From Bacillota bacterium (GTDB lineage: Bacteria; Bacillota; SHA-98; UBA4971): a DNA stretch of 55,796 bases. Below, one piece after another: positions 9,156 to 17,863 of the stretch; positions within the stretch are counted from its first letter, which is position 1; each line of letters begins with the position of its first letter. Position numbers and translations under genes: made by a program. The notes under the pieces are model-generated. The model was not told the DNA's origin. It saw only the letters and a list, made by a program, of their open reading frames with translations, and did no database searches. The stretch lies in NCBI GenBank assembly GCA_024653485.1, contig JANLFY010000016.1, positions 1 to 55,796 of the forward strand. Direction: 5' to 3'.

Positions 9156-9185
9156 TTGACAACGGAGGAAGGATGTTGCTAGAAT
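9156..9185 (+). promoter_or_regulatory. Promoter of the T-box operon
   Basis: A consensus TTGACA -35 (9156-9161) and TAGAAT -10 (9180-9185) are 18 bases apart, with TGC before the -10 (extended -10). Transcription would start near 9192, directly before the T-box leader. Confidence 0.8.
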
Positions 9186-9191
9186 AGGGGC

Positions 9192-9628
9192 AACCGGAGC
9201 CGTCCGGGCATCCGGGTCCGATAAGCGAGATCTACATCAGCGAAAGGCGTAGAAGGGGAAGGTCGCCACGGAACGGCCCTATCCGGAGCGAGCGGGGGAT
9301 GGTGCAAGCCCCGCGGAAACGGGTGTGGTGAGTGGGCCCCGGAGCCGCAGGCTGAAAGGCCGGTACGCGTTGTGCCCGAAATGCGCGACCGCGACGTGAC
9401 ACCGCCAGCGCCGCTGAGTCGTCGTCTGTCGATCGAGGCCGTGACATTCGTAAGCCAGCGTCCGGGCGAGTAGGCTGAGCCGGAAGCCACCGTTAAACGG
9501 CGGGGATATCGCCGGACGCGCCGAGGCGCTGAAAGCCGTATCCTAACAACGAGTGGGGCAGGTGTGTCTTGTCTCACGAGGGTGGCACCACGGGTTTGAA
9601 GCTCGTCCTTCACGGGGCGAGCTTCTTT
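9192..9628 (+). promoter_or_regulatory. T-box riboswitch, tryptophan specifier
   Basis: The leader has T-box landmarks in order: the Stem I distal element GGGGGATGGTGCAAGCCCC (about 9294-9312), the specifier region GTGAG-TGG-GCCCCGGAGC with specifier codon TGG at 9333-9335, GGCTGAAAG (9350-9358), and the T-box/antiterminator sequence AGGGTGGCACCACGG (9579-9593), followed by an intrinsic terminator. The antiterminator bulge reads TGGC (9583-9586). Its last base should pair with the tRNA discriminator; C pairs with G73, and bacterial tRNA-Trp carries G73. Specifier and bulge therefore agree on tRNA-Trp. The leader should allow read-through into the ferredoxin/AOR/Liv operon when tRNA-Trp is uncharged. 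Confidence 0.88.
9598..9628 (+). terminator. Rho-independent terminator of the T-box
   Basis: GAAGCTCG(TCC) at 9598-9608 pairs with (GGG)CGAGCTTC at 9615-9625, then TTTGTTT follows. The 5' arm lies directly after the T-box sequence, as needed for mutually exclusive antiterminator and terminator folds. Confidence 0.88.
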
Positions 9629-14930: not shown

Positions 14931-15055
14931 AGCGGCGGACGGCGCGCTGAAGGGCACGACGACCTGACGCGATGACCGGGGGGCATCCTAGCGGGTTCCG
15001 GGGCGACGGGGTGTGAGGCGATGAGGCAGGCGAGAAAGGCGGGGGAGGAGAATCA

Positions 15056-17863
15056 GTGCAAATGGATAGAGGTACTGATGAGAACGCTAGCAAACGACCG
15101 CGGGGACCCCATGGGTGGTCGCGTTTCGCCTTTCCGGGGGTTGGGGGAGTCGTGTATCCCGCCCTCGCCGCTTTCGCCCTCGTCCCCGTGCTCACGCATG
15201 ACTCTTACCTGCTAAGGGTCGGCGGAACCGCGGGCATCTATCTCATCCTGGCCGTCGGGCTCAACATAGTAGCCGGCGAAGCTGGGCTCCTCGACCTCGG
15301 ATACGTGGCCTTCTATGGAATAGGAGCATACGTATACGCCTTCCTTTCGTCGCCTCACTTTGGGCTTCACGTGCCGTTCCTGCTGAGCGCGACGTGCTCT
15401 GTCTCGTCGGCCGTGCTCGCTGCCCTCGTCGTATGCCTGCCCACGCTCCACATACGCGGGGACTACCTGGCCATGGTCACTCTGGGGTTCGCGCAAATAG
15501 TGCGCATCCTCCTCAACAACCTTGACCGGCCGGTGAACATCACGAACGGGCCGAACGGCATTGTGGCCATAGACCCTCCGAGGCTCTTCGGCCAGAGCTT
15601 CATGTCGCTCGAGGCGTCCTACTCCTTGATATGGGTGGTCGCGGCCGCGGCCGTCATCGCGGTGGGCCGCGTCCTTCGCTCGGGCATCGGCCGGGCTTGG
15701 GCCGCTCTACGCGAAGATGAGGTGGCCGCGGCCTGCATGGGTGTCAACGTGCTGCGGTACAGGACCATGGCGTTCCTCTGGGGAGCCGCTCTCGCCGGGC
15801 TCGCCGGGGCGCTCTTCGCCTCATGGCAGGGAGCGATCTTCCCCCAGAACTTCACGACGGCTGAGACCATCGCCGTGTACTGCATGGTGATCATGGGCGG
15901 GATGAGGAGCCTGCCCGGGCTGGCAGCAGGTGTGGCGGCGCTTGTAGTGCTTCCGGAGGTGCTGCGCGCCTATTCCGTATACAGGATGCTCATCTACGGG
16001 ATCGCGCTCGTGCTCCTGGTGGTGTACCGCCCCCAGGGCCTGATCCCGGAACAGTCCTCGCTTTGCGCGCCCTCCGGACGGGCGCGGCGGCGCGCCTGGG
16101 TTAAGGAGGAGGAAAGAAGTGCGGGGCGCCAGGACCGGCGATACGAGGAGCAGCGAGAGGGCACGAGTCCGTCGCCACCTGACTCTGTGCCGGCGCTCGA
16201 AGTCCTCGACGCGGGATGCAACTTCGGCGGTCTGGCGGCTCTATCGCGAGTGACCATGACGGTGCGCCGGGGCGAGGTGGTCGGCGTCATCGGGCCGAAC
16301 GGAGCGGGCAAGACCACCCTCTTCAACGTCATAACCGGCGTCACGAGGCCACAAGCAGGGGACGTCAGGGTCTTCGGAAGGAGCGTATTGCGAACCCCGC
16401 CCCACGAGATAGCCGCGCTCGGCGTCGCGCGCACGTTTCAGAACATCAGGCTCTTCGAAGGCAGGAGCGTCCTCGAGAACGTCCTCGCGGGCTGCCATCT
16501 TCGAACGAGACGAGACATCGCCGGGGCCATCCTTAGGACTCGGGCATTTAGGGTGCGCGAAGAGTCTGAGACAGCCGTAGCGCAAGACGCCCTGCGCACC
16601 GTGAGCCGTTCTCTCCAAGATCGCGAGGCCGAACCTGTGCGCGATCTCGCGTACCCGGACAGGCGTCGCGTGGAGCTTGCCCGGGCGCTCGCGGCGCGTC
16701 CCCGAATCCTTCTGTTGGATGAGCCCACCGCTGGCATGACTCCTGACGAGATGGCGGACATGGTGGCCACGATCAGGATGCTCAAGGACCACGGGCACAC
16801 TATCGTCGTAATCGAACATCACATGAACGTGGTCGCCGAGACGTGCGACCGCGTGGTCGTCCTTGATCATGGCGAGAAGATAGCCGAGGGCACGCCCGCC
16901 GAAATCGCTTCGAACCCCGAGGTCGTCCGAGCTTACTTAGGAGCGGAGAAGACTGCCGCGAACTCCAGGCGCACGGCGCTCGTCGAGGGGAAGCCCGCGG
17001 CCGAGGGAGACGGGAGCAAGAGCGGGCAGGGGACCGTGCGCACGGGGACCGTCCGTCGCGCGCCAGGCGAACGCGAGCCCATAGGGCTGCCGCAAGCAGT
17101 AGGAGGCTGCCCGAGACTCCGTGAAGAAGGACGCGACGAGGCGCCCGAGCGCCGAGCGCCCATCCTTGAGGTGACGAATGTTCATTCGTCGTACGGCGCT
17201 GTCAAGGTGTTGCAGGGAGTGGACCTTCGCGTGGAAAGCGGTGAGATCGTCGCGGTCCTCGGGAGCAACGCGAGTGGAAAGTCCACGCTGCTCAAGACCA
17301 TACTCGGTCGCCTTCGTCCTTCCATTGGTGAGATCCGCTTCATGGGACGCCGGATAGACGCGCTGCCGACGTCCGAGATAGCGAGGGCCGGAATCGCTTT
17401 GGTCCCGGAGGGCAGGAGGATCTTCCCCGGGCTTTCAGTCCTGGAAAACCTCGAACTCGGTGGGTACGTCCTCGGAGACCGGACGAAAGCCGCCGCGAAC
17501 ATCCAGCGGGTCTTCGACCTCTTTCCCGTGCTCGCGGAGAGACGTCACCAGAAGGCGGGGACTCTCTCGGGCGGCGAGCAGCAGATGCTGGCCATCTCGC
17601 GAGCCCTCGTTGCAGACCCCAGGCTCATCTGCATGGATGAGCCATCCATGGGGCTCGCGCCCGTGCTTGTTGATAGGGTCATGCAAGTGATAGAGGACAT
17701 CCGGAGGTCGGGAGCGACAGTGCTGCTGGTGGAGCAGAACGCCCGTGCGGCGCTCGCCATCGCAGATCGGGCTTACGTCCTCCGCGCAGGGCGCGTTGCG
17801 GTGACGGGACCCGCCACAAGATTCCTCGATGAGGCATCTCTCTCGGAAGCGTACCTTGCCTAG
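15056..17863 (+). CDS. LivM-LivG-LivF triple fusion (permease plus two ATPase domains)
   Basis: One 935-codon frame holds three subunits normally encoded separately. Residues 1-335 are LivM (LNIVAGEAGLLDLGYVAF, RGDYLAMVTLGFAQIVRI, EDEVAAACMGVNV, YRPQGLIPE). A charged linker of about 50 residues leads to LivG (about 386-632; Walker A GPNGAGKTT at 413-421, LLLDEPTAGMTPDE, IEHHMNVV). A second linker of about 65 residues, rich in R, G, E and P, leads to LivF (about 701-935; Walker A GSNASGKST at 736-744, VPEGRRIFPGLSVLENL, LSGGEQQMLAISRAL). GTG at 15056 follows GGGGGAGGAG. Two-domain Liv fusions are known; three in one chain is unusual. A strong Shine-Dalgarno-like AAGGAGGAGG at 16103-16112 followed by an out-of-frame GTG leaves room for an indel having merged livM and livG. 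Confidence 0.85.
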   Translation: MQMDRGTDENASKRPRGPHGWSRFAFPGVGGVVYPALAAFALVPVLTHDSYLLRVGGTAGIYLILAVGLNIVAGEAGLLDLGYVAFYGIGAYVYAFLSSPHFGLHVPFLLSATCSVSSAVLAALVVCLPTLHIRGDYLAMVTLGFAQIVRILLNNLDRPVNITNGPNGIVAIDPPRLFGQSFMSLEASYSLIWVVAAAAVIAVGRVLRSGIGRAWAALREDEVAAACMGVNVLRYRTMAFLWGAALAGLAGALFASWQGAIFPQNFTTAETIAVYCMVIMGGMRSLPGLAAGVAALVVLPEVLRAYSVYRMLIYGIALVLLVVYRPQGLIPEQSSLCAPSGRARRRAWVKEEERSAGRQDRRYEEQREGTSPSPPDSVPALEVLDAGCNFGGLAALSRVTMTVRRGEVVGVIGPNGAGKTTLFNVITGVTRPQAGDVRVFGRSVLRTPPHEIAALGVARTFQNIRLFEGRSVLENVLAGCHLRTRRDIAGAILRTRAFRVREESETAVAQDALRTVSRSLQDREAEPVRDLAYPDRRRVELARALAARPRILLLDEPTAGMTPDEMADMVATIRMLKDHGHTIVVIEHHMNVVAETCDRVVVLDHGEKIAEGTPAEIASNPEVVRAYLGAEKTAANSRRTALVEGKPAAEGDGSKSGQGTVRTGTVRRAPGEREPIGLPQAVGGCPRLREEGRDEAPERRAPILEVTNVHSSYGAVKVLQGVDLRVESGEIVAVLGSNASGKSTLLKTILGRLRPSIGEIRFMGRRIDALPTSEIARAGIALVPEGRRIFPGLSVLENLELGGYVLGDRTKAAANIQRVFDLFPVLAERRHQKAGTLSGGEQQMLAISRALVADPRLICMDEPSMGLAPVLVDRVMQVIEDIRRSGATVLLVEQNARAALAIADRAYVLRAGRVAVTGPATRFLDEASLSEAYLA

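Follow-up and report, generated by a model that had tools for sequence, protein, structure and literature searches.

Why should a T-box leader that reads a tryptophan codon stand in front of a ferredoxin and an aldehyde ferredoxin oxidoreductase (AOR), followed by an ATP-binding cassette (ABC) importer of the Liv type? The question is raised by an operon at positions 9156 to 17863 of contig JANLFY010000016.1 from a Bacillota bacterium (GenBank assembly GCA_024653485.1); the window analysed here is the whole stretch of 55,796 nucleotides. A preliminary description had proposed that the importer takes up tryptophan or that the AOR handles an aldehyde such as indole-3-acetaldehyde, and had found it paradoxical that a catabolic enzyme should be switched on under tryptophan starvation. 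Our analysis indicates that this is very probably a tryptophan-responsive, transcription-attenuating operon, whose core target would be the Liv/HAAT importer, transporting tryptophan and possibly aromatic amino acids generally. We favour tryptophan as the substrate because the tryptophan T-box is kept with the importer and because it occurs in hosts without genes for tryptophan synthesis.

A tryptophan T-box heads the operon

In an Rfam scan of the window at an E-value threshold, the leader matches the T-box family RF00230 over the full length of the model (Table 1). Across 11 distinct leaders, 94.8% of the Stem I cells are paired and six pairs are changed on both sides, a result equalled by none of 500 shuffles; helix 4 of the Rfam structure is weakly backed in the same alignment. 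The specifier was placed by the rule that the codon lies 5 nt ahead of the conserved NGAGN of Stem I. Applied to the ten other T-boxes of the genome, the rule recovers the amino acid expected from the downstream gene, as assigned by reading translations and not by a family scan of each: UCC before serS, AUC before ileS, GUC before valS, ACC before thrS, CUC before leuS, UUC before tlyA-pheS, AUG before metG, CCC before proS and CAC before the binding protein of a polar-amino-acid ABC transporter, with GGC before glyQ needing a spacing of 6 nt instead of 5. In the leader studied here it gives UGG, a codon that is invariant in the aligned leaders of relatives. The tRNA-Trp(cca) of the genome carries G73, which matches the C of the antiterminator bulge; one related leader has UGGU in place of UGGC, and G:U pairing at that position has been reported to be common in tryptophan T-boxes (PMC7778990). 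The tryptophan T-box, its specifier and the match between bulge and discriminator had all been read from the sequence in the preliminary description; each is borne out here, and the comparison of the leader in relatives, which it had proposed, points the same way.

Elsewhere in the genome, the T-box reading CAC (His), which sits before the polar-amino-acid ABC binding protein (L004 1501-1981; G000:C1:238905-239385), has a UGGG bulge matching C73 of tRNA-His, and the proS T-box (L011 1501-1783; G000:C6) has a UGGC bulge facing A73 in both tRNA-Pro seen, a mismatch. The related genome G436 has GCG instead of GAG before the specifier, and a second T-box with an apparent UAC (Tyr) specifier upstream of its AOR operon (L249, reverse strand, about 100-400).

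The sigma-70-like promoter ahead of the leader is the sole promoter-like match between 9000 and 18200, a length over which 1.1 such matches are expected by chance; TTGACA is found ahead of most related leaders too. A promoter belonging to the importer, unlinked to the T-box, had been named as an observation that would speak against control by the leader, and the pattern scan of 9000-18200 gave no promoter-like site within the operon. The terminator hairpin has a predicted stability of -20.8 kcal/mol, reached by none of 200 shuffles, and its 12-pair stem is kept in 87.5% of cells across relatives; since the alignment of relatives yields no covariation above shuffles, the call rests on this stability. 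Terminator and antiterminator are mutually exclusive, about 9598-9611 being common to both helices. Read together, the predicted promoter, specifier, bulge, antiterminator and terminator form a complete switch.

The T-box is kept with the importer

We searched 398 Bacillota genomes for LivK (E below 1e-70) and found an ortholog in 21, those of the other genomes being 70-90% identical to the LivK of the window. A UGG T-box lies upstream in all 21, either before livK or before an AOR-livK unit. It immediately precedes livK, without an intervening AOR, in 13 genomes (six of the sister genus, five of family f63 and two of f18), and is separated from livK by ferredoxin and AOR genes in eight (six of the window's genus, G436 and G401). 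The association extends to Chloroflexi, where livKHMGF is preceded by a GAA-UGG/UGGC T-box in Anaerolineales G061 (78.7 bits) and Caldilineae G062 (98.4 bits), with a ferredoxin, an AOR and two TIGR04076 proteins further on past the Liv genes. In a third genome of this phylum, G097, AOR comes after livF on a short contig that lacks the upstream part. The T-box-Liv-AOR link is not general in Chloroflexi, because six other genomes whose AOR is 70-80% identical to that of G061 have no such Liv genes and no T-box near the AOR. Judged by gene order, the T-box belongs to the importer, and the pairing of T-box and importer does not depend on the AOR.

The hosts point in the same direction. None of the 13 genomes of the window's family has trpA, trpB or trpD above the curated cut-off; trpA was found in all control genomes, and trp genes are present in many relatives. 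Weak trpB and trpD matches lie far below the cut-off and cover a partial profile, and as TrpB2 was not searched with its own model, these cells may still be able to convert indole to tryptophan. Among 61 relatives, trpA exceeds its cut-off in 0 of 13 operon-bearing genomes vs 31 of 48 others (p 1.8e-5, a value inflated by kinship).

The LivK protein retains Ser79, Thr102, Tyr150 and an acid at position 226 of leucine-binding protein, which we take to be the contacts to the alpha-amino and carboxyl groups in that protein. Its pocket differs at two other positions, Trp18 being replaced by Ile and Tyr202 by Pro, Ser or Ala. Such a pocket points, indirectly, to an amino acid as ligand more than to an indole acid, and would have room for a larger side chain. 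Of the two proposals made for this operon, uptake of tryptophan by the importer is most likely correct in view of a T-box that accompanies the importer throughout the lineages read, with or without an AOR, in hosts without trp genes.

Organisation of the operon

The gene order that had been described, ferredoxin, AOR and Liv-type importer, agrees with family scans, apart from the start of the ferredoxin ORF (open reading frame), which is probably the ATG at 9759 and not 9627 (Table 1). A full Liv/HAAT set is encoded: a LivK-type binding protein, the permeases LivH and LivM and the ATPases LivG and LivF. Fusions of livM, livG and livF like that of the window occur in related Bacillota tryptophan T-box operons as well.

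Table 1. Predicted elements and genes of the operon, with positions in the window.
Feature	Position	Strand	Evidence
Sigma-70-like promoter, TTGACA-N18-TAGAAT	9156-9185 (TAGAAT at 9180-9185)	+	pattern match
T-box leader, Stem I to antiterminator	9241-9613	+	Rfam RF00230, 40.8 bits, E 1.7e-7; Stem I covariation
Specifier codon TGG (Trp)	9333-9335	+	position rule fitting ten other T-boxes; invariant in aligned relatives
Antiterminator helix	9578-9611	+	RF00230 alignment; fold
Antiterminator bulge TGGC	9583-9586	+	sequence; complementary to G73-CCA of tRNA-Trp
Intrinsic terminator hairpin with T-rich tail	9598-9625	+	fold; pattern search; 12-bp stem
TIGR04076 domain fused to AorA-like 4Fe-4S ferredoxin subunit	9759-10544	+	TIGR04076 and Fer4 families; PDB match 8c0z_C
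AOR family large subunit	10648-12600 (ATG at 10648)	+	Pfam AFOR_N, AFOR_C; PDB 9mqx, 1aor
livK-like substrate-binding protein, probably for tryptophan	12623-13903	+	Peripla_BP_6, Liv subfamily; alpha-amino-acid contacts kept
livH permease	14001-14930	+	family scan
Fused livM-livG-livF, permease and two ATPases in one 935-aa ORF	15056-17863	+	family scan

The ferredoxin protein begins with a TIGR04076 domain (about 9759-10031; 76 bits vs a cut-off of 33), and among PDB entries it most resembles the Fe-S subunit of the Aromatoleum AOR. The TIGR04076 domain has three invariant cysteines; it is fused to the AOR ferredoxin here and forms a stand-alone tandem after the AOR in Chloroflexi. A confident model of its fold (pLDDT 87.6) gave no PDB match below E 0.001, the closest, non-significant matches being XdhC-like proteins. 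In G003 there are two copies of the operon region (L076 = C47, L077 = C74), one with a broken AOR frame, which may reflect a strain mixture in the assembly.

History and possible role of the AOR

The AOR has the features of its family, including the AFOR_N and AFOR_C domains, C298-C301-C305 and C517, the Glu of EGPEFEG and the His of RGGDH; by analogy with the P. furiosus enzyme, the four Cys are presumably cluster ligands and the Glu and His part of the active site. The proteins of known structure that match it best are 9mqx and 1aor, and the stretch ahead of DPRG is unlike that of solved AORs. The AORs of the Bacillota T-box operons form one clade (eight rows, support 100), while the members with AOR are scattered over the LivK/LivH tree (L105 at the base, the window's genus, G436 and G401). 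This pattern suggests that the AOR was probably present early and was later lost at least twice, in the sister genus and in the f63/f18 crown. A late insertion of the AOR between T-box and importer was also considered, and was rejected on the strength of this spread and of the single, well-supported AOR clade. The idea that the T-box primarily controls the AOR is not supported in that form, as the AOR is dispensable to the arrangement; with the importer as the core target, what is left of the paradox of a catabolic enzyme induced by starvation is the matter of the AOR's function.

The early presence and repeated loss of the AOR, together with the 13 Bacillota genomes that have T-box and importer without it, lend some credit to the idea that it is a mere passenger, unrelated to tryptophan, whose place in the operon is historical and which is now being lost. 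We regard this as possible, though rather unlikely, since the same AOR clade recurs beside uptake genes in other lineages, which points to a recurrent tie: it is found next to Liv genes in different arrangements, following them in Chloroflexi and divergent from them in a deltaproteobacterium, and next to permeases for amino acids in Desulforamulus and G028. The neighbours of the AOR in Chloroflexi, Bathyarchaeota, Desulforamulus, Dethiobacter and the deltaproteobacterium (RidA, a creatininase-like protein, permeases and peptidases) do not define a single pathway.

Liv-type importers are often broad in substrate. Tryptophan could accordingly act as a general nutrient gauge, the rarest amino acid sensing the exhaustion of peptides, with a broad importer and an AOR that oxidises the aldehyde mix of amino-acid fermentation. 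The 11 AOR-family matches and the IorA of the genome fit an amino-acid fermenter, and characterised AORs have a very wide aldehyde range, for example that of Aromatoleum (PMC6365974). We nonetheless give this explanation a low probability: the tryptophan specifier is kept on the importer in two phyla, alongside the loss of trp genes, which argues for tryptophan itself, and the pocket positions of LivK are unlike those of leucine-binding protein.

A third, still less probable, explanation is that the tungsten AOR acts reductively on indole-3-acetate or related acids under tryptophan starvation, feeding, with IorA (indolepyruvate:ferredoxin oxidoreductase) and an aminotransferase, a tungsten-dependent salvage of tryptophan that would be coupled to the Liv-type importer in auxotrophs lacking trpA, trpB and trpD. 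Expression of the operon is expected at low tryptophan only, AORs are reported to be able to reduce acids (PMC9295118), and IorA is found in 9 of 12 genomes with AOR vs 3 of 11 without (p 0.04, uncorrected and with relatedness ignored), a co-occurrence weakly compatible with an indole link for the AOR. However, IorA is missing in G002, G436 and G062, all of which have the AOR, the operon contains neither a ligase nor an aminotransferase and none is evident beside iorAB (read by eye), and the contacts retained by LivK are those for an alpha-amino acid and not for an aryl acid. Moreover, we know of no step leading from indoleacetaldehyde to indolepyruvate, and known salvage runs via indoleacetyl-CoA without an AOR. 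As an accessory to a tryptophan importer, the ferredoxin-AOR pair is most likely a low-potential oxidoreductase for aldehydes or acids of amino-acid fermentation, perhaps aromatic ones, its direction being as yet a matter of inference.

Discussion

We propose that tryptophan scarcity acts on the operon through its leader. Uncharged tRNA-Trp would pair with the UGG specifier and with the UGGC bulge, and the bound tRNA would stabilise the antiterminator, blocking the terminator. The polymerase would then continue through the ferredoxin, the AOR and livK-livH-livMGF, presumably as one transcript, so that tryptophan auxotrophs would increase uptake when tryptophan is short. The ferredoxin and AOR would represent an accessory, co-transcribed module.

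Several observations weigh against this proposal. The leader scores 40.8 bits, below the RF00230 gathering score of 93, and a default Rfam scan reported no T-box at this position. The gathering score is a curation rule and not a biological feature, and in this GC-rich genome T-boxes normally score low, only one of the 11 passing it. The canonical AGUA/GAA loop E motif beside the specifier is absent, AGGUC/GAG being found in the Stem I of the window (9238-9357), and the replacement of these motifs makes the affinity of this Stem I for the tRNA uncertain. Auxotrophy is not universal among carriers of the operon: trpA is missing in eight of the nine other operon-bearing Bacillota and in two of four Chloroflexi, and is present in G469, G062 and G063. 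Lastly, the genome counts are not phylogenetically independent, and the breadth of Liv-type importers leaves room for tryptophan to be one substrate among several. The low Rfam score and the missing AGUA would also suit a T-box with a specifier different from UGG, or a leader that has decayed and no longer functions, but this is highly improbable given the position rule that holds for ten T-boxes, the discriminator match, the covariation of Stem I, the invariant UGG in relatives and the intact terminator.

The AGGUC/GAG variant of Stem I is found in most of these tryptophan T-boxes, with AGAUC replacing AGGUC in some relatives; in the sister genus, this importer is preceded by a canonical Stem I. 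The proS T-box of the window's genome also lacks AGUA.

A tryptophan-controlled importer of this kind would give a likely substrate, tryptophan, to a Liv-type lineage that annotation labels branched-chain; its hosts are uncultured members of the Bacillota and Chloroflexi, and the majority of them apparently cannot make tryptophan. It would extend T-box control of tryptophan to transport in Chloroflexi. It would also give one clade of the AOR family, whose members are poorly assigned, a regulatory context, and ties the uncharacterised TIGR04076 to the AOR. If the AOR does act in tryptophan limitation, this would add a new role to those of tungsten enzymes.

We found no paper that joins a T-box and an aldehyde ferredoxin oxidoreductase, and T-box surveys or TBDB may already list these leaders. 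The parts of the operon have known counterparts. The importer shares its subunit families with E. coli LivK/LivJ-HMGF, and differs from it by the livM-livG-livF fusion, the altered pocket positions 18 and 202 and the control by a tryptophan T-box. As in AorABC of Aromatoleum aromaticum (PMC6365974; 8c0z), the AOR large subunit is encoded together with a small ferredoxin subunit that holds several clusters; the Aromatoleum enzyme acts well on aromatic aldehydes, phenylacetaldehyde among them (PMC6365974). Its large subunit is, however, distant from ours (310 bits), and the operon of the window has no AorC-like FAD subunit and a ferredoxin that carries TIGR04076. As for the leader, the available part of an earlier study describes tryptophan T-boxes on Bacillota transporters (NSS and ABC families) and on Chloroflexi trpE and trpB-like genes (Dehalococcoides) (PMC2494555). 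There, too, the specifier served to infer the substrate of a transporter and tryptophan T-boxes are found in both phyla, but that part contains no Liv-type importer or AOR, and the Chloroflexi tryptophan targets it names are biosynthetic.

The closest parallel is trpXYZ of Streptococcus suis, a tryptophan auxotroph, which encodes an ABC importer for tryptophan controlled by a UGG T-box and for which induction by tryptophan limitation and the need for both the specifier and the T-box sequence have been shown experimentally (PMC9382623). The two systems differ in that TrpX was modelled on template 3lft, which is not a Liv protein, whereas the binding protein of the window belongs to the Liv subfamily of Peripla_BP_6 and is not TrpX-like, and in that trpXYZ has no AOR. 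They have in common a UGG T-box, a transcription terminator, an ABC importer and a tryptophan-auxotrophic host, and by this analogy the best reading of the arrangement is that it would work like the streptococcal trpXYZ with an importer of a different family.

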